Source: Thauera sp. JM12B12 (GTDB taxonomy: Bacteria > Pseudomonadota > Gammaproteobacteria > Burkholderiales > Rhodocyclaceae). Taken from it: 64,000 nucleotides of DNA. This document shows positions 2,007 to 54,124 of the stretch, one piece after another (within the stretch, counting starts at the first letter, position 1; every line of letters starts with the position of its first letter). The notes beneath the pieces were generated by a model that was not told the DNA's origin, ran no database searches, and saw only the letters and a list, made by a program, of their open reading frames with translations. The DNA is taken from positions 2,852,001 through 2,916,000 of the forward strand of contig NZ_CP154859.1 in assembly GCF_039614725.1 (NCBI RefSeq), in the 5' to 3' direction. Made by a program: the position numbers and the translations under genes.

Positions 2007-4046
<2,040 letters not shown>

Positions 4047-4107
4047 GTCACCCTCCTCGTCTGCGCCGCGGAAACGTCGTCCGCGGCTGCGTCCTTATCG
4101 TTATGTT

Positions 4108-4140
4108 CAAAAAAGTAGCACCTGCCCTACATTGAAGCAA
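4108..4140 (+). promoter_or_regulatory. Putative enhancer site for the AcoR-like activator (copy 1)
   Basis: The segment has an A-tract, then GTAGCACCTGCCC, then a TACATT-GAAGCA tail. It matches 27 of 31 bases of a segment at 50501-50532 upstream of xoxF. It contains a short inverted repeat, GTAG-N8-CTAC. It lies about 100 bases upstream of the -24 GG of the sigma-54 promoter at 4215-4230, a normal distance for an enhancer-binding protein site, and 62 bases from the start of the divergent activator gene. Binding by that activator is inferred from position and sharing, not shown. Confidence 0.7.
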
Positions 4141-4214: not shown

Positions 4215-4230
4215 TGGCACAGGGCTTGCG
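4215..4230 (+). promoter_or_regulatory. Sigma-54 (-24/-12) promoter of the fds operon
   Basis: TGGCACAGGGCTTGCG fits the sigma-54 consensus with GG at 4216-4217 and GC at 4228-4229 separated by exactly ten bases. Transcription would start near 4241, giving a leader of about 73 bases before the ATG at 4314. The promoter sits downstream of the shared enhancer-like element at 4108-4140. Confidence 0.8.
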
Positions 4231-4313: not shown

Positions 4314-4727
4314 ATGCTTGCCTGCCCTGTTCCGACCGACTCCATCCTCCGGCGTCATTTCGAGCAGCTCGCCTCCACCGCCGGCCTGCCGCCGCCGCCC
4401 GAGGAATCGGTGCTGCTGCGCCACTACATGCAGTTGCTCGACGCACGGCTCGCCGCCGGCAGCACGGCTCGGGGCGGACACGGCGCGGATGCCGCGACAT
4501 CTGCACCCATCGCGCGTGCAAGCGCACCAAAACAGGGCGCCGAGCCCTCCGCGGCGGCTTCCGTCGTCGCCGAACCGGCCCCGGCACGCCCGACAGCCGC
4601 CTCCCGCGAAGCCGCGACGGCGCCCAGCCCACACGGCGAGGCGGCGCCACGCGCGCCCCAGCATGCCGCCCCGCCGGCGTCGACGGGCTGGTTCGGCCGC
4701 CTGATGGCGCGGCTCTTCGGCAACTGA
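4314..4727 (+). CDS. Uncharacterised small protein at head of fds operon
   Basis: 137-residue protein of unknown function. The start at 4314 is supported by a strong ribosome-binding site (GAGAGGAGG, about 7 bases upstream). Residues 9-50 hold two copies of a similar helix, SILRRHFEQL and SVLLRHYMQL. Residues about 55-120 are Ala/Pro-rich and look disordered. The last 13 residues (GWFGRLMARLFGN) form a short amphipathic, basic-aromatic helix that could contact a membrane or partner protein. No signal peptide. It is the first gene after the sigma-54 promoter and lies 82 bases before fdsGB, so co-expression with formate dehydrogenase is likely. Codon use matches the neighbours. Confidence 0.75.
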   Translation: MLACPVPTDSILRRHFEQLASTAGLPPPPEESVLLRHYMQLLDARLAAGSTARGGHGADAATSAPIARASAPKQGAEPSAAASVVAEPAPARPTAASREAATAPSPHGEAAPRAPQHAAPPASTGWFGRLMARLFGN

Positions 4728-4809: not shown

Positions 4810-6555
4810 ATGGCCGATCAGCACCCCGCCACAGACCCCGTCGCCGCCCGCCGCAAGACCCGCGGCACCCCGCGCGGCCGCCAGCTCGACCCCGCCGCCT
4901 TGCGCGAGGTGGAAGACCTGCTCGCGGGCCGCTCGCGCGCGCGCGACATGCTCATCGAGCACCTGCACGCCCTTCAGGACCGGCATGGTCACCTGGCGCT
5001 GCGCCACCTGCGCGCGCTCGCGCACTGGATGAACCTGCCGATGGCCGCGGTTTACGAGACCGCCACCTTCTACGCCCATTTCGACATCGTGCCCGACGGA
5101 GAGATTCCACCGCCCGCGGTGACCATCCGGGTCTGCGACTCCCTGTCGTGCGAACTCGCGGGGGCGCGCACCCTGCATTCCGCACTCGCAGCCGAGGTCG
5201 ATCCTGCGGAGATCCGCGTGCTGCGCGCACCCTGCATGGGCCGCTGCGACGTCGCGCCCGTGATAGAGGCAGGCCATCGCCACCTCGGCCACGCCACGCC
5301 GGCTGCCGTGCGTGCCTTGCTGCGCGCGGGCGACCTGCATCCCGATCCGATTGGCTGGCAGCACCTGCCCGACTACGAGGCGGGGGGCGGCTATCGCCTG
5401 CTGCGGGACCTGCGCGGCGGCAGCATCACCATCGAGCAGATCAGCGCCGTACTGCAGGACGCCGGCCTGCGCGGCCTCGGCGGCGCCGGCTTTCCCACCT
5501 TCAGGAAGTGGGCCTTCGTGCGCGCCGAGCCGGCCCCGCGCTACATGGTGATCAACGCCGACGAGGGCGAGCCGGGCACCTTCAAGGACCGCCATTACCT
5601 CGAGCAGGCCCCGCACCGCTTCCTCGAAGGCGCGCTCGTCAGCGCCCTCGGGGTCGACGCCGCGGCGCTCTACATCTACCTGCGCGACGAATACCCCGGC
5701 CTGCACGCGGTGCTGCGCGAAGCCATCGCCGAAGCCGAGGCCGCCGGCCTCGCCGCCCCCGGCTTCATCCACCTGCGCCGCGGTGCTGGCGCGTACATCT
5801 GCGGCGAGGAATCGGCGCTCATCGAGTCGCTCGAGGGCAAGCCCGGCAAGCCGCGCCATCGCCCGCCCTTCGTCGCGCAGAAGGGGCTCTTCGATCGCCC
5901 GACGCTGGTGAACAACGTCGAGACGGTGTACTGGATTCCGCTGCTGTGGCAGCACGGCGCCGACTGGTTCGCCAGCCAGGGCCGCCACGGACGCAAGGGC
6001 CTGCGCAGCTTCTCGGTATCGGGCCGCGTCGCGCGACCAGGCGTGCATCTGGCGCCGGCCGGCATCACCTTGCAGGAACTGGTCGACGAATACTGCGGCG
6101 GCATGATGGAGGGCCACCGCCTGCTCGCCTACCTGCCCGGTGGCGCCTCGGGCGGCATCCTGCCCGCGAACAGGGCCGATATCCCGCTCGACTTCGACAC
6201 CCTGCAGCCCCATGGCTGCTTCATCGGCTCGGCCGCCGTCATCGTGATCTCCGACCAGGACGACCTGCGCGCGGTGGCGAAGAACCTGATGGCCTTCTTT
6301 GCCGACGAGTCCTGCGGCCAGTGCACGCCGTGTCGCGTCGGCACCGAGAAGATGCTCGGTCTGCTCGCGTGCGACGAATGGGACGCCGACCAACTCGACC
6401 GCCTCGCCCGGGTCATGCAGGACGCCTCGATCTGCGGCCTCGGCCAGGCCGCGCCCAACCCGGTGACCAGCCTGCTGCGCTTCTTCCCGGCCGAACTGGC
6501 GAAACAGGGCGTGACCCTGCGCCCGGCTGCGGCGAACACGGAATCCGCCTCATGA
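4810..6555 (+). CDS. fdsB: NAD-dependent formate dehydrogenase, fused gamma-beta subunit (FdsGB)
   Basis: 581-residue fusion of a NuoE-like and a NuoF-like module. The N-terminal module (about 1-165) carries the thioredoxin-like [2Fe-2S] cysteines in CDSLSC and CMGRC. The C-terminal module has the Gly-rich NADH/FMN region (GLGGAGFPTFRKW, NADEGEPGTFKDR) and the [4Fe-4S] motif ESCGQCTPCR with a distal SICGLG cysteine. It transfers electrons from FdsA to NAD+ in the cytoplasm. Many fds operons encode separate FdsG and FdsB; here they are one chain. Its stop overlaps the fdsA start (ATGA), indicating translational coupling. Confidence 0.95.
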   Translation: MADQHPATDPVAARRKTRGTPRGRQLDPAALREVEDLLAGRSRARDMLIEHLHALQDRHGHLALRHLRALAHWMNLPMAAVYETATFYAHFDIVPDGEIPPPAVTIRVCDSLSCELAGARTLHSALAAEVDPAEIRVLRAPCMGRCDVAPVIEAGHRHLGHATPAAVRALLRAGDLHPDPIGWQHLPDYEAGGGYRLLRDLRGGSITIEQISAVLQDAGLRGLGGAGFPTFRKWAFVRAEPAPRYMVINADEGEPGTFKDRHYLEQAPHRFLEGALVSALGVDAAALYIYLRDEYPGLHAVLREAIAEAEAAGLAAPGFIHLRRGAGAYICGEESALIESLEGKPGKPRHRPPFVAQKGLFDRPTLVNNVETVYWIPLLWQHGADWFASQGRHGRKGLRSFSVSGRVARPGVHLAPAGITLQELVDEYCGGMMEGHRLLAYLPGGASGGILPANRADIPLDFDTLQPHGCFIGSAAVIVISDQDDLRAVAKNLMAFFADESCGQCTPCRVGTEKMLGLLACDEWDADQLDRLARVMQDASICGLGQAAPNPVTSLLRFFPAELAKQGVTLRPAAANTESAS

Positions 6556-9410
6556 GCACGCCCACCTCCGCGCCCACCCACTCCCCGGCTCCCTCCTTGA
6601 CTGCACCGTCGGGCGCCTTCGAGCTCACCCTCGACGGCGTCCGCGTGCAGGCTTTTCCGGGCGAGACCCTGTGGCAGGTCGCCAGGCGTGCAGGCGAACG
6701 CATCCCGCACCTGTGCTTCAAGGACGCGCCGGGTTACCGCGCCGACGGCAACTGCCGCGCCTGCATGGTCGAGATCGAGGGTGAGCGCACGCTCGCCGCA
6801 AGCTGCATCCGCCCGGCGATGCCCGACATGGTGGTGAAGAGCGCCTCGTCCGAGCGCGTGCGCAACGCGCGCGAGGGCGTCATGACGCTGCTGCTCGCCG
6901 ACCAGCCGGCGCGCGCCGACAGCCCCGACCGCTCCAGCCACTTCTGGGAGATGGTCGATCTGATGGCGCTCGACATCGACGCGCCCGACGCACCGCACGC
7001 CCGACTGCCGCCGCGCCGCGCAGCCCCGAACCCGCCCGACACCTCGCACACCGCGATGCACGTCAACCTCGACGCCTGCATCGCGTGCAACCTGTGCGTG
7101 CGCGCCTGCCGCGAGGTGCAGGTCAACGACGTCATCGGCCTCGCCTACCGCGGCGCAGGCTCGAAGATCGTTTTCGACTTCGACGATCCGATGGGCGACA
7201 GCACCTGCGTGGCCTGCGGCGAATGCGTGCAGGCCTGCCCGACCGGCGCGCTGATGCCCGCCCGCATCGTCGACGCACACGGCCGCGGCGACTCGGCCTG
7301 CGCCGACCGCAAGGTGGATTCGGTCTGTCCCTACTGTGGCGTGGGTTGCCAGCTCACCTACCACGTCAAGGACGAGAAGATCGTCTTCGTCGAAGGCCGC
7401 AACGGGCCGTCGAACGAGAACCGCCTGTGCGTCAAGGGCCGCTTCGGCTTCGACTACCCCAACCACCCGTCGCGCCTCACCGTGCCGCTGATCCGCCGCG
7501 AAGGCGTGCCGAAAGGCCTCGACCCGGATTTCGACCCCGCCAAGCCGCTCACCCATTTCCGCGTCGCCAGCTGGGACGAGGCGCTCGACCTCGCCGCCGC
7601 CGGCCTGCGCCGCCTGCGCGACGCGCACGGCCCCGACGCGCTCGCCGGCTTTGGCAGCGCCAAGTGTTCGAACGAGGAAGCCTGGCTGTTCCAGAAACTG
7701 GTGCGCACCGGCTTCCATTCGAATCATGTCGACCACTGCACCCGCCTGTGCCATGCCAGCTCGGTGGCGGCGCTGATCGAATGCATCGGCTCGGGCGCGG
7801 TCACCGCATCCTTCATGCAGGCCCAGCAAGCCGACGTCGTCATCCTCACCGGCTGCAACCCGACCGTGAACCACCCGGTCGCCGCCACCTACTTCAAGCA
7901 GGCGGCCAAGCGCGGCACCAAGCTCATCGTGCTCGACCCGCGCGGCATCACCATGGGCGCCTACGCCCACCGCATGGTGCGCTTCACCCCGGGCAGCGAC
8001 GTGTCGCTGTTGAACGCCATGCTCAACGTCATCGTCACCGAACACCTCTACGACGAGGCCTACATCGCCGCCCACACCGAAGGCTTCGAGGCGCTCAAGG
8101 CCCATGTCGCGCCGATGACGCCCGAGGCCATGGCGCCCGCCTGCGGCGTCGCCCCCGACGAGATCCGCGACATCGCCCGCCTGTACGCCAAGGCCGATCG
8201 CGCGATGATCTTCTGGGGCATGGGCATCTCGCAGCACACGCATGGCACCGACAACGCGCGCTGCCTGATCTCGCTCGCGCTCGCCACTGGCCAGATCGGC
8301 CGCCCCGGCACCGGCCTGCATCCGCTGCGCGGGCAGAACAATGTGCAGGGTGCATCGGACGCCGGCCTCATCCCGATGGTCTTCCCCGACTACCAGCCGG
8401 TGGGCGACGCGCAGATCCGCGCCGCCTTCGAGGAGCTGTGGAACACGCCACCCGACCAACCGCTGGCCGACAAGCCCGGCCTCACCGTGGTCGAGATCGT
8501 GCACGCCATCCACGCCGGCACCATCCGCGGCATGTACATCCAGGGCGAGAACCCGGCCATGTCCGACCCCGACCTCGACCACGCCCGCGGCGCGCTCGCC
8601 AGGCTTGAACACCTGGTCGTGCAGGACCTCTTCGTCACCGAGACCGCGCAGTTCGCCGACGTCATCCTGCCCGCCTCGGCCTGGGCCGAGAAGGACGGCA
8701 CCGTCACCAACACCAACCGCCAGGTGCAGATGGGCCGCGCCGCCGTACCCCTGCCCGGCGACGCCCGCCCCGACTGGTGGATCATCCAGGAGATCGCCCG
8801 ACGGCTCGGGCTCGACTGGCACTACACCCACCCGCGCGACGTGTTCGCCGAGATGAAGCGCGGCATGCACTCGCTCGACCACATCAGCTGGGAACGCCTG
8901 CAGGCCGAAGCGTCGGTCACCTACCCCTGCCCCGCCGACGACGCCCCCGGCCTGGACGTGGTCTTCGGCGACCGCTTCCCCACCGCCAGCGGCCGCGCCC
9001 GCTTCCGCCCCACGGTGCCGCTACCGCCCGACGAGCCGATCGACGACGCCTTCCCCACCGTGCTCATCACCGGCCGCCAGCTCGAACACTGGCACACCGG
9101 CTCGATGACCCGCCGCGCCAGCGTGCTCGACGCGCTGGAACCGGCCGCGGTGGCCACCCTCGCGCCCGGCGAACTCGCCCGCCTGGGACTCGAACCCGGC
9201 GCTGCACTGTCCATCGAGACCCGCCGCGGCAGGATCACGCTCGCCGCCCGCACCGACCCGCTGATGCCCGAAGGCATGGTCTTCGTGCCCTTCTGCTACG
9301 TGGAAGCGGCGGCCAACATGCTGACCAATCCGGCGCTCGACCCGTACGGCAAGATTCCCGAGTTCAAGTACGCGGCATGCAGACTGGGGGCGGGCGCTCC
9401 CGCGGCATAG
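6552..9410 (+). CDS. fdsA: NAD-dependent formate dehydrogenase catalytic alpha subunit (Mo-bisMGD)
   Basis: 952-residue FdsA-type subunit that oxidises formate to CO2. In order: an N-terminal [2Fe-2S] ferredoxin domain (CRACMVEIEGE, about residues 60-80), a ferredoxin-like region with CIACNLCVRAC and CVACGECVQACPTGA, a [4Fe-4S] site VCPYCGVGC, and the large molybdopterin domains. The Mo-ligating residue is Cys at about 400 (CTRLCHASS), so this is a cysteine rather than selenocysteine enzyme. The following molybdopterin-binding features (GCNPTVNHP, QGENPAMSDPD) are intact. The start is the ATGA overlap with fdsB. No fdsC- or fdsD-like chaperone gene follows; the operon ends against a convergent maoC-like gene. 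Confidence 0.96.
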   Translation: MSTPTSAPTHSPAPSLTAPSGAFELTLDGVRVQAFPGETLWQVARRAGERIPHLCFKDAPGYRADGNCRACMVEIEGERTLAASCIRPAMPDMVVKSASSERVRNAREGVMTLLLADQPARADSPDRSSHFWEMVDLMALDIDAPDAPHARLPPRRAAPNPPDTSHTAMHVNLDACIACNLCVRACREVQVNDVIGLAYRGAGSKIVFDFDDPMGDSTCVACGECVQACPTGALMPARIVDAHGRGDSACADRKVDSVCPYCGVGCQLTYHVKDEKIVFVEGRNGPSNENRLCVKGRFGFDYPNHPSRLTVPLIRREGVPKGLDPDFDPAKPLTHFRVASWDEALDLAAAGLRRLRDAHGPDALAGFGSAKCSNEEAWLFQKLVRTGFHSNHVDHCTRLCHASSVAALIECIGSGAVTASFMQAQQADVVILTGCNPTVNHPVAATYFKQAAKRGTKLIVLDPRGITMGAYAHRMVRFTPGSDVSLLNAMLNVIVTEHLYDEAYIAAHTEGFEALKAHVAPMTPEAMAPACGVAPDEIRDIARLYAKADRAMIFWGMGISQHTHGTDNARCLISLALATGQIGRPGTGLHPLRGQNNVQGASDAGLIPMVFPDYQPVGDAQIRAAFEELWNTPPDQPLADKPGLTVVEIVHAIHAGTIRGMYIQGENPAMSDPDLDHARGALARLEHLVVQDLFVTETAQFADVILPASAWAEKDGTVTNTNRQVQMGRAAVPLPGDARPDWWIIQEIARRLGLDWHYTHPRDVFAEMKRGMHSLDHISWERLQAEASVTYPCPADDAPGLDVVFGDRFPTASGRARFRPTVPLPPDEPIDDAFPTVLITGRQLEHWHTGSMTRRASVLDALEPAAVATLAPGELARLGLEPGAALSIETRRGRITLAARTDPLMPEGMVFVPFCYVEAAANMLTNPALDPYGKIPEFKYAACRLGAGAPAA

Positions 9411-22330: not shown

Positions 22331-22346
22331 TGCAAGCGATATGCCA
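22331..22346 (-). promoter_or_regulatory. Sigma-54-like sequence before fhcB (weak call)
   Basis: On the minus strand TGGCATATCGCTTGCA has GG and GC separated by ten bases and matches TTGCA at -12 exactly. Transcription would begin about two bases before the fhcB ATG, leaving no room for a ribosome-binding site, and no copy of the shared enhancer element is nearby. It may be a chance match or serve a near-leaderless transcript. Confidence 0.3.
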
Positions 22347-50433: not shown

Positions 50434-50500
50434 CGCGGCATTCTGCCACCCCGGCCCCGCACGGCGCTCGGCCGCCCACGTCGCGGCTCGTTCGCTGTCC

Positions 50501-50532
50501 CAAAAAGTAGCACCTGCCCCAGATTTAAGCAG
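50501..50532 (+). promoter_or_regulatory. Putative enhancer site for the AcoR-like activator (copy 2, xoxF)
   Basis: The segment repeats the element at 4108-4140: A-tract, GTAGCACCTGCCC (13 identical), then CAGATT-TAAGCA. It is about 68 bases upstream of the xoxF -24 GG, in the same orientation as copy 1. The difference in spacing (33 bases) is close to three helical turns. Confidence 0.7.
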
Positions 50533-50573: not shown

Positions 50574-50589
50574 TGGCACAAGCTTTGCA
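50574..50589 (+). promoter_or_regulatory. Sigma-54 (-24/-12) promoter of xoxF
   Basis: TGGCACAAGCTTTGCA has GG at 50575-50576 and GC at 50587-50588 with exactly ten bases between, close to the consensus. The predicted transcript starts near 50600 and has a leader of about 127 bases. Confidence 0.85.
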
Positions 50590-50643: not shown

Positions 50644-50726
50644 GCAGCTGCAGTCCTCGTGTGCCGCGGCGGGGAAGCTCGGTTGGCGCGGCAAGACACC
50701 AGAGTGTTTTCAGTGAGGAGACGACA

Positions 50727-52565
50727 ATGAAACAACCAGGGAAACCCGCCCGTCGCAGCCCCCAGTTGCTGGCCGCAGTCCTGCTGGCCCTGCCCGGACT
50801 CGCACTCGCAAACGCGGACCTCAAGAGCAAGATCGACAACCCGGGCAACTGGGCCGCGCAGGCGGGCGACTTCTTCAACCAGCGCTACAGCAAGCTCGAC
50901 CAGATCAACAAGGACAACGTCGGCAACATGCAGGTCGCGTGGACCTTCTCCACCGGCGTGCTGCGCGGTCATGAAGGTTCTCCGCTCGTCATCGACGGCA
51001 TGATGTACATCCACACCCCGTTCCCGAACAAGGTGTTCGCGGTCGACCTCGACACGCAGAAGATCGTCTGGCGCTACGAGCCGCGCCAGGATCCTTCGGT
51101 GATCGCGCAGATGTGCTGTGACACCGTGTATCGCGGCCTCGCCTATGCCGAAGGCAAGATCTTCCTGCAGCAGGCCGACAGCACGCTGGTCGCGCTCGAC
51201 GCCAAGGACGGCAAGGTACTGTGGAGCGTGGTGAACGGCGATCCCAAGCTCGGCGCGGTCAACACCAACGCCCCGCACGTATTCGGCGACAAGGTCATCA
51301 CCGGCATCTCCGGTGGCGAATGGGGCGTGCGCGGCTTCCTCGCCGCCTACGACATCAACACCGGCAAGCTGGCATGGAAGGGCTACAGCACCGGCCCCGA
51401 CGCCGAGATGCTGATGGACCCCGAGAAGACCATGACCTGGACCGACGGCGAGTTGAAGCCGGTGGGCAAGGACTCCTCGCTGAAGACCTGGCAGGGCGAC
51501 CAGTGGAAGATCGGCGGCGGCACGACCTGGGGCTGGTTCAGCTACGACCCGGCGCTCAACCTGGTCTACTACGGCACCGGCAACCCCTCGACCTGGAACC
51601 CCTCGCAGCGCCCCGGCGACAACAAGTGGTCAATGACGATCTTCGCCCGCGACCTCAACACCGGCGTCGCCAAGTGGGTGTATCAGATGACGCCGCACGA
51701 CGAATGGGACTTCGACGGCGTCAATGAAATGATCCTTGCCGACATCAAGGTCAAGGGCAAGGACACCAAGGCGCTGGTGCACTTCGACCGCAACGGCTTC
51801 GCCTACACGATGGATCGCACCAACGGCGCGCTGCTGGTGGCCGAGAAGTACGACCCGACGGTGAACTGGGCCTCGCATGTCGACATGAAGACCGGCCGCC
51901 CGCAGGTGGTCGCCGATTTCTCGACCTCGAAGCACACCAATCCCAAGCACGGCCCGGACGTCAACGTGAAGGGCATCTGCCCGGCGGCGCTCGGCACCAA
52001 GGACCAGCAGCCGGCCTCCTTCGATCCGAAGACCGGCCTGTTCTATGTGCCCACCAACCACGTGTGCATGGACTACGAGCCGTTCGAGGTGGACTACGTT
52101 GCCGGCCAGCCCTATGTCGGCGCCACCGTGTCGATGTTCCCGACTCCGAACAGCCATGGCGGGATGGGCAACTTCATCGCCTGGGACGCGGGTGAAGGCA
52201 AGATCGTCCAGTCCAAGCCCGAGAAGTTCTCGGTGTGGAGCGGCTCGCTCAATACCGCGGGCGGCATCTCCTGCTTCGGCACGCTGGAGGGCTACCTGAA
52301 GTGCGTCGATGCGAACGACATCAACAAGGAGCTGTACAGCTTCAAGACGCCGTCCGGGATCATCGGCAACGTATTCACCTATCTGCACAAGGGCAAGCAG
52401 TACATCGGCGTGTTCTCGGGCATCGGCGGCTGGGCCGGCATCGGCATGGCGGCCGGTCTGGAGAACGACACCGACGGCCTGGGCGCGGTGGGCGGCTATC
52501 GCGAGCTGCAGAACTACACCCAGCTTGGCGGTTCGCTGACCATCTTCGCGGTCCCCAGCCGCTGA
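50727..52565 (+). CDS. xoxF: Lanthanide-dependent PQQ methanol dehydrogenase XoxF
   Basis: 612-residue periplasmic quinoprotein with a signal peptide ending near residue 28 (ALALA). Signature features: the vicinal Cys pair in [16 protein letters not shown] with the metal-ligating Glu, [19 protein letters not shown] with the Asn ligand, and EWDFDGVNE at residues about 326-334. In the last motif Asp 328 is the catalytic base, and Asp 330, two residues on, is the extra lanthanide ligand that MxaF replaces with Ala. C-terminal segments ([27 protein letters not shown]) fit XoxF5-like enzymes. The ATG follows GTGAGGAG. A sigma-54 promoter and the shared enhancer element lie upstream; xoxG and xoxJ follow. 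Confidence 0.96.
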
Positions 52566-52709: not shown

Positions 52710-53132
52710 ATGAAACACAGGCAGTTCGCCCTCGCATTCGCCTTTCTCTGCTTCGGCAGTGCGACCCAGGCCCAGGACGCTCAGGCCGCGGCCAAGTCCA
52801 GCGAGTCGGACAAGCCGCTCTACACCGTGGTGGACGGCTACAAGGTCGACGCCGACACGCTCCAGGGCTTCCGTACCTGGCGTGCGGCGGCATGCGATCG
52901 CTGCCATGGCGCCAACCAGGAAGGCATGGTCGGCCCCTCGCTGATCGAGCGCCTCAAGGTGCTGAGCAAGGAGGAGTTCGTCACCGTCGTGCGTGACGGC
53001 CGCCTGGAAAAGGGCATGCAGAGCTTCGGCAACGACCCGCGCGTGATGGACAACATCGACAAGCTCTATGCCTACCTCAAGGGGCGCTCGGACGGTGCGA
53101 TCACGCGCGCCCGCGTGAGCGCGATCGAATGA
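52710..53132 (+). CDS. xoxG: Cytochrome c, electron acceptor of XoxF (XoxG)
   Basis: 140-residue c-type cytochrome with a signal peptide (to about residue 22) and one haem site CDRCH near residue 63, with Met in GMQSFG as the likely sixth ligand. It accepts electrons from XoxF in the periplasm. It starts 144 bases after xoxF with a strong GAGGAGGAG Shine-Dalgarno. Low-potential cytochromes of this kind pair with lanthanide enzymes. Confidence 0.92.
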   Translation: MKHRQFALAFAFLCFGSATQAQDAQAAAKSSESDKPLYTVVDGYKVDADTLQGFRTWRAAACDRCHGANQEGMVGPSLIERLKVLSKEEFVTVVRDGRLEKGMQSFGNDPRVMDNIDKLYAYLKGRSDGAITRARVSAIE

Positions 53133-53158
53133 CGGCCGAACGCAGCCAAGGAGTTCCG

Positions 53159-54124
53159 ATGACCGAGGCCAACCCCCGCACCCGCGGCGCCGACCCGCGC
53201 AGCCCCGTTGCACGGCACCCTGGCGCACCTGCATCGCCTGCGCACTGGACGACGCGACAGCGCGCGGTCGCGCTCGTCGGCGCCTGCGCTGCCGCCGCGC
53301 TGCTCGCCCCCGCGCCGGCCGCCGGCGCTGCCGAGGGCAAGGCAAACGGGCGCGACAGCTTGCGCGTCTGCCAGGACCCCAACAACCTGCCCTTCGCCAA
53401 CGACAGGCAGGAGGGCTTCGAGAACCGCATCGCCGAGCTGCTCGGCAAGCACCTCGGCGTGCCGGTCACCTATTTCAACTACCCGCAGCGCTTCGTATTC
53501 ATCCGCAACACCCTGCGCTACAAGCTGCCCGGCGAGGACTACCCCTGCGACGTGATCATCGGCCTGCCGGTCGGCTTCGACCAGGTCGCGATCACCAAGC
53601 CCTACTATCGCTCGACCTACGCCATGGTCTTCCCGCAAGGCAAGGGTCTGGACGGCGTGAACAGCGTCGAGGACTTCCTCGCCCTGGGTCGCGAGCGTCT
53701 GTCCGCACTGAGGATCGGTCTCTACGACAAGTCCCCGGCCTCGAAGTGGATGGACCGCCACGCCCTGGTCGACCAGGGCGTGCCCTACCAGACCATCAAC
53801 GTCGCCATGGACCATTACGTCGGCGACATCATCGACAAGGACCTGGTGGGCGGGAAGATCGACGTCGCCATCGTGTGGGGACCGGTCGCCGGCTACTACG
53901 CGAACAAGGTCGACCCGCCGCTCAAGGTCGTGCCGATGAAGTCCGAGCCCGGCATCCAGTTCGACTTCGCCTTCGGCATGGGCATCCGCCGCGGCGAGCC
54001 GGAATGGAAGGCGCAGCTCGAGGGCTTCCTCGACACCCACCAGGCCGAGATCGCCGAGATACTCGAGCGCTACCACGTACCGCTGATCGACGAACCGCCC
54101 AAGGTCGTCAGCAACGGATCATGA
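53159..54124 (+). CDS. xoxJ: Quinoprotein-associated periplasmic binding protein (XoxJ)
   Basis: 321-residue exported protein of the MxaJ/XoxJ family, similar to type-2 solute-binding proteins: LRVCQDPNNLPFANDRQEGFE, then VTYFNYPQRFVFIRNTLR and CDVIIGLPVGFDQVAITKPYY. XoxJ is thought to assist assembly or activation of XoxF. The ATG at 53159 follows AAGGAG at five bases; a start at 53129 overlapping the xoxG stop is possible. The mature protein starts about residue 50. Confidence 0.93.
   Translation: MTEANPRTRGADPRSPVARHPGAPASPAHWTTRQRAVALVGACAAAALLAPAPAAGAAEGKANGRDSLRVCQDPNNLPFANDRQEGFENRIAELLGKHLGVPVTYFNYPQRFVFIRNTLRYKLPGEDYPCDVIIGLPVGFDQVAITKPYYRSTYAMVFPQGKGLDGVNSVEDFLALGRERLSALRIGLYDKSPASKWMDRHALVDQGVPYQTINVAMDHYVGDIIDKDLVGGKIDVAIVWGPVAGYYANKVDPPLKVVPMKSEPGIQFDFAFGMGIRRGEPEWKAQLEGFLDTHQAEIAEILERYHVPLIDEPPKVVSNGS

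Follow-up and report, generated by a model that had tools for sequence, protein, structure and literature searches.

Analysis of a 64,000-nucleotide stretch of the Thauera sp. JM12B12 chromosome (the window) points to a sigma-54 activator, here called P2, which very probably activates xoxF and, in some members of the genus, the fds operon from their sigma-54 promoters. The genes for methanol and formate oxidation lie at opposite ends of one C1 gene cluster in the window, and each is preceded by a copy of the same site and by a sigma-54 promoter box. The sites, the boxes, the homology of the activator and the conservation of the arrangement, on which this reading draws, were observed directly.

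Two site copies and their sigma-54 boxes

The upstream elements are as follows (R1 and R2 are the profiles described below):

4103..4140, plus strand: upstream site on the fds side, flanked by the activator gene and the fds operon; 31/36 identity to the xoxF-side copy, E 6.3e-8 by R2
4215..4229, plus strand: -24/-12 sigma-54 box TGGCACAGGGCTTGC on the fds side (sequence match)
50495..50532, plus strand: upstream site on the xoxF side; E 3.8e-8 by R2, counterpart in 16/16 xoxF-bearing congeners by R1 and 14/16 by R2
50574..50588, plus strand: -24/-12 sigma-54 box TGGCACAAGCTTTGC upstream of xoxF; within the xoxF upstream alignment of 15 congeners, no block is more conserved

When aligned without gaps at an offset of 46392, positions 4104-4139 and 50496-50531 were found to be identical at 31 of 36 bases, the longest identical run being 18 bases (AAAAAGTAGCACCTGCCC). 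The initial annotation had counted 27 matching bases out of 31, which holds over 4108-4138 and 50500-50530 once its end coordinates are shifted by 1-2 bases; its run of 13 consecutive identical bases was too short. The promoter that it had placed downstream of each copy was recovered as an exact -24/-12 box lying 100 bp (fds) or 67 bp (xoxF) from the start of GTAGCA, and both boxes match GG-N10-GC in its TGGCAC / TTGC context exactly.

The strongest dyad of profile R2 is centred at 19.5 (score 5.0 vs 2.0 at the next centre), with an inner GCAccTGC and outer arms TGTTnCA / TGAAGCA. As in an enhancer, the element is a dyad which lies approximately 60-260 bp upstream of a box and is conserved together with an activator. 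From their sequence, the two copies appear to belong to the same type of regulator.

Specificity of the site in the genome and the family

A whole-genome motif search had been proposed by the initial annotation; a 25-mer pattern allowing up to 3 mismatches was found at both copies and nowhere else in the 4,171,389-bp genome (1 place for the backwards control). Across 150 genomes of the family, the same pattern gave 38 places compared to 28 for the backwards control (counted by hand), and it was rejected as evidence in favour of profile searches because it was too unspecific; since the loose pattern barely exceeds its control, the case rests on profile, position and conservation.

Profile R1 scored the two copies at 43.1 and 40.6 bits in their own genome (E 1.3e-10 and 7.8e-10), scores which are circular because R1 contains both of them. 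The profile was rebuilt without the genus, as R2, from 15 sites of other genera only, all beside activator homologues; 150 of 1111 first-look candidates were scored in the R2 genome search. R2 ranked the window sites as the top two of their genome, the xoxF side at 35.3 bits (E 3.8e-8) and the fds side at 34.6 bits (E 6.3e-8); the third site in rank, approximately 5.7 kb to the left of the window, was weaker (21.2 bits, E 0.001).

An activator homologue was encoded directly behind the site in 18 of the 29 relatives' loci kept from the pattern search, and the activator-linked sites of relatives share a longer consensus, TGTTnCAnAACGTAGCACCTGCCCCnnnTTGAAGCAA. Twenty further R1 matches, including the third site of the own genome, were examined; an activator homologue adjoined 16 of them, xoxF lay downstream of 1 (in G139), and 3 (L169, L180, L181) were at neither. 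A downstream box scoring at least 10 of 12 was present at 21 of 22 activator-linked sites (all except L122). At 16 of these 22 loci (L112-L115, L117, L121, L123-L129, L003-L005) a second -24/-12 box on the opposite strand faces the activator gene across the site, an arrangement suggestive of autoregulation.

The activator P2 and its paralogues

2007..4046, minus strand: P2, sigma-54 activator; DhaR-like N-terminal part (residues 33-219), AAA+ domain (355-519) and Fis-type helix-turn-helix (638-677), by Pfam, model and fold match

A sigma-54 activator had been reported next to the first copy, and P2 is indeed encoded there. It combines a sigma-54 interaction AAA+ domain, a C-terminal Fis-type helix-turn-helix (PF02954 in Pfam) and a DhaR-type N-terminal sensor part, as do AcoR/DhaR-like bacterial enhancer-binding proteins. 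The fold-search matches were taken up by the AAA+ domain and hardly covered residues 220-345, and none of the 25 curated models among the matches listed reached its cutoff. The closest named activator records were from Aromatoleum toluclasticum and an Azoarcus metagenome-assembled genome, in a search from which records of or near the own genome were possibly left out.

The site was found beside an activator homologue in 37 loci, of which 33 encode a PedF homologue (cytochrome c550) on the facing 2.6 kb; a solute-binding protein is also encoded in 32 of the 33. No pedF faces the activator at L122, or at P2 in G139, G035 and G009. PedF was named by NCBIfam in L123, L129 and L165, and a PQQ-associated beta-propeller protein and a cytochrome b561 are encoded near some activator loci (tested in L112 and L119). 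In relatives, this type of regulator thus mostly accompanies the pedF genes of PQQ-alcohol oxidation. Judged by homology, P2 is a duplicate of the pedF-facing DhaR-like regulator.

Three activator paralogues are present in the own genome: P2, P1 and P3, the last two being 62% and 54% identical to P2, respectively. P1, approximately 5.7 kb to the left of the window, faces pedF, lies near the gene for a PQQ dehydrogenase 39% identical to XoxF and has the third site. The neighbours of P3 (L297) include torAC and a gene for an ExaC-type acetaldehyde dehydrogenase. A FastTree phylogeny of 55 homologues, rooted at the midpoint and read without support values, omits the truncated P2 of G035 and that of G165, which is divided between contigs; in it, P2 formed one clade of 15 genus members with the P2 of G009 at its base. 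The recognition helix of P2 reads SRNTLYRKLGR, as in other genera, ending in LGK in G139 and G156; that of the own P1, whose site is weak, reads SRNRLYRKLGR. P2, which adjoins the fds-side site, is the best candidate for the protein that would bind both sites.

Genes of the fds operon and the xoxF cluster

4314..4727, plus strand: small ORF of 137 amino acids that follows the fds-side promoter as the first gene; contains a PTDSILRRHF motif
4810..6555, plus strand: FdsG-FdsB fusion of 581 amino acids, 2Fe-2S thioredoxin-like and NuoF-like
6552..9410, plus strand: FdsA, formate dehydrogenase catalytic subunit (TIGR01591; start codon chosen by hand)
50727..52565, plus strand: XoxF, lanthanide-type methanol dehydrogenase of 612 amino acids (TIGR03075, PDB matches, WDFDGVNE motif)
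53129..54124, plus strand: XoxJ-like periplasmic binding protein (TIGR03871, 275.2 bits vs a cutoff of 212.15)

The 137-amino-acid ORF had no family match in Pfam or NCBIfam scans. FdsA scored 694.7 bits against TIGR01591 (cutoff 666.25) on the longer ORF 5148-9410, and the combination of an FdsA-type alpha subunit with NuoE/NuoF-like partners is that of a soluble formate dehydrogenase (Fds).

The best PDB matches of the window XoxF were the XoxF structures 6dam (919.8 bits) and 6oc5 (913.6 bits), followed by 1g72, a methanol dehydrogenase heavy subunit (636.7 bits). This gap reflects closeness to one XoxF group and not the metal, because 4mae, also a lanthanide enzyme, scored 616.1 bits. The extra aspartate of WDxDGxNE, a mark of lanthanide-dependent XoxF, is present in the window protein (WDFDGVNE).

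Association of P2 and its site with xoxF across the genus

Among 29 genomes of the genus, xoxF (E 1e-180) was found in 16 and P2 (65-95% identity) in the same 16, while neither xoxF at that threshold nor a P2-class homologue was found in the other 13; 10 of these 13 had homologues of at most 63% identity only and 3 had none at E 1e-120. The coincidence (16/16 vs 0/13) has a nominal probability of 1.5e-8; P2 and xoxF lie in one gene cluster wherever the contigs allow the order to be seen, so that their co-occurrence partly reflects joint inheritance and is less independent than the nominal value.

Absence of the element upstream of xoxF in relatives that keep the activator had been put forward as grounds for dismissing the link, which withstood this check for xoxF. 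Using R1, a site upstream of xoxF and a site at P2 were detected in all 16 xoxF-bearing congeners, all of which carry P2, and a TGGCAC-N5-TTGC box lies behind the xoxF site in all 16, at a distance of 79-256 bp measured from where the 47-base site window begins. In G172 xoxF runs off its contig, and the end of another contig has the site, the box and the start of xoxF. R2 recovered the P2-side site in 16/16 and the xoxF-side site in 14/16 (missing G171 and G173). The R1 scores of the xoxF-side sites were spread widely, from 19.2 to 40.6 bits.

An alignment of 15 xoxF upstream regions was read in 15-base windows. Mean pairwise identity was 0.90 over the box compared to a median of 0.36, and reached 0.77-0.85 over the left and middle parts of the site (window starts 50493-50511) and 0.89 in a block of the 5' leader; the 40 best windows listed include none on the right arm of the site.

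The leader block (CTCGTGTGCCGCGGCGGGG, 50655-50677, plus strand) is about as conserved in congeners as the promoter box. A regulatory RNA was considered for the leader and rejected: a 6-pair hairpin can be drawn, but 0 pairs were changed on both sides among 14 sequences. No Rfam family matched within the window at gathering scores.

fds as a variable partner

The link to fds proposed in the initial annotation is not general: fds faces P2 in 8 of the 16 xoxF-bearing congeners, as well as in G009 and G035 (two other genera), and does not face it in the other 8. A universal partnership of P2 with fds is excluded by this count, and because of it the link between P2 and xoxF is taken as the core. 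Three of the remaining congeners (G139, G156, G169) have a distant FdsA only (60-62%), encoded elsewhere in the genome; in the other five (G157, G162, G164, G166, G167) no FdsA was found at E 1e-200, nor was the 137-amino-acid ORF, and the P2-side site has no box scoring at least 10 on either side (the best, in G166, scores 9 and points towards P2). The ORF was located opposite P2 in G139, G156 and G169 as well as in the 8 genomes whose fds faces P2. FdsA was also found in three congeners lacking xoxF (G103, G151, G160).

In G009, a member of another genus, P2, the site, fds and xoxF stand in one row on a single stretch. Its xoxF has its own box together with a diverged tandem version of the site, and no good site.

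xoxF in other lineages of the family

Close XoxF homologues (E 1e-240) were found in 35 of 395 family genomes, 24 of them outside the genus. The upstream regions of 21 of these 24 were read, leaving out G035 (truncated), G217 and G277, with the second tandem copies of the genus g6 mostly unread. A TGGCAC-N5-TTGC box was present in 10 of the 21 (G009, G060, G199, G104, G140, G194, G227, G236, G255, G366) and absent from 11; the more distant XoxF copies of G070 had no box upstream. In all of the boxed cases except G009 (9 of 10), a direct repeat, CASTGTGTMAC...GTGTAAC or GTGTCA, was recognised upstream by eye. This combination of a GTGTMAC-type repeat and a sigma-54 box occurs in four other genera (L190, L192, L193, L301, L302, L306, L307, L310, L312).

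A distant AcoR-like activator is encoded on the xoxF stretch of G060 (38.7% identity), G104 (38.8%) and G140 (47.3%, AAA+ part only), and none was found on the fetched 16-20 kb stretches of G005, G118, G028 and G132, whose xoxF is boxless. Such absences prove little, because the stretch of G139 (L209) also shows none and P2 lies approximately 24 kb away there; an activator near xoxF was not upheld as a rule outside the genus.

A TGGCAT-N5-TTGC box was also noted within the window at 22346 (minus strand), ending approximately 13 bp before the hand-chosen start of fhcB and leaving little room for a ribosome-binding site. TGGCAY-N5-TTGC stands at the same position relative to fhcB in 6 of 7 readable relatives (5 congeners and G140; G028 has CTGC), and the P2 site is absent from the fhcB box in those relatives.

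Proposed mechanism and alternative explanations

In the proposed mechanism, the repeated element would be the upstream activator site of P2. The Fis-type helix-turn-helix would attach a P2 oligomer to the 38-bp dyad, and looping of the intervening 67-100 bp would bring this oligomer into contact with RNA polymerase-sigma-54 at the -24/-12 boxes. Both promoters, that of xoxF and that of the small-ORF/fds operon, would thereby be opened, such that methanol and formate oxidation would rise together. The DhaR-like N-terminal part may sense an inducer, either an alcohol or a C1 intermediate.

Of the earlier proposal that one regulator serves both xoxF and fds, the shared site type, the boxes and the adjacent P2 stand; the fds link is not general, and a single regulator is not proven because the genome encodes three paralogues of this type, of which P1 has its own weaker site facing pedF. 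The sites could instead be bound mainly by P1 or P3, or by several paralogues, in which case xoxF would belong to a general alcohol-dehydrogenase regulon and not to a dedicated P2 regulon. The identity of P1 (62%) and P3 (54%) to P2 would fit this, as would the P1 site, a weaker version of the same motif, and the xoxF sites of G139, G156 and G169, which resemble the P1 site. However, 7 of the 16 xoxF genomes, G139 and G156 among them, have no homologue in the P1 class (59-63%) and nevertheless keep the xoxF site, which favours P2 as the binder; together with the changed recognition helix of the own P1, this disfavours P1 as sole binder. With regard to P3, no R1 match was found at its locus up to E 10, and three congeners lacking xoxF (G155, G160, G168) have P3-like homologues (53-55%) as well. 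We consider binding mainly by P1, P3 or several paralogues unlikely.

A role of the element as an operator for repression by P2, or as the site of another protein, with the -24/-12 boxes used independently, appears highly improbable. It would account for the five congeners whose P2-side site has no box scoring at least 10 on either side, and for the 16 of 22 activator-linked loci where the far-side box faces the activator gene and thereby places the site inside that transcript; against it, the pair of site and box at xoxF is kept in 16/16, the site lies at enhancer distance from the box and the neighbouring gene encodes a sigma-54 activator. That the two copies match by chance or through low-complexity similarity is scarcely credible: the weak family-wide specificity of the 3-mismatch pattern (38 vs 28) speaks for it, but it is contradicted by the E-values below 1e-7 which R2, built from other genera, gives for both copies and by the conserved islands upstream of xoxF. 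Activation by P2 is retained as the preferred reading.

Relation to known systems and significance

According to the excerpted text of PMC6115532, the regulation of xoxF is known from a small number of model methylotrophs, where it runs via two-component systems and response regulators. In the excerpts of PMC6115532 and PMC12997753, XoxF or PQQ alcohol dehydrogenases are controlled by PedS2/PedR2 and EraSR (Pseudomonas), MxcQE, MxbDM and MxaB (Methylobacterium) and MxaY (Methylomicrobium); these are two-component systems or response regulators, and no sigma-54 activator for xoxF is reported in those excerpts. The nearest known system in the sources excerpted is the sigma-54/LuxR-type control of exaA, a PQQ alcohol dehydrogenase gene, in Azospirillum brasilense Sp7 (Singh et al. 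2017, as cited in PMC6115532). Common to both is the sigma-54-dependent promoter of a PQQ-dependent alcohol dehydrogenase gene; Azospirillum has a LuxR-type regulator and an ExaA-type enzyme, whereas in the window a lanthanide-type XoxF would be controlled by an AAA+ activator through an upstream site of its own. MmoR, described in the excerpt of PMC5874634 as close to GAF-containing regulators, switches on the soluble methane monooxygenase genes with sigma-54 and resembles P2 as a sigma-54 activator of a C1-oxidising enzyme; its target is mmo, and xoxF is mentioned in that excerpt only with regard to rare earths. The target genes of AcoR/DhaR-type bacterial enhancer-binding proteins differ from those of P2. 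No paper tying xoxF to an enhancer-binding protein, RpoN or sigma-54 was found in a search of open-licence PubMed Central full text. Systems of this kind are known; the new elements are the link to xoxF, the duplicated regulator and its genus-wide conservation.

For this betaproteobacterial family as a whole, the chances appear evenly balanced that xoxF came under sigma-54 control at least twice, through P2 and through a distant activator acting at the GTGTMAC repeat, with P2 linking the oxidation of methanol and formate to a C1 signal in the cytoplasm, either in place of the two-component control known from elsewhere or in addition to it. The two promoters and one activator form a directly testable system, and the P1/P2 pair with its diverging sites offers material on how paralogous activators become insulated from each other. 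If the role proposed for P2 is correct, xoxF would have a separate regulatory route, through a dedicated activator of sigma-54 promoters that arose when a regulator of alcohol oxidation was duplicated.
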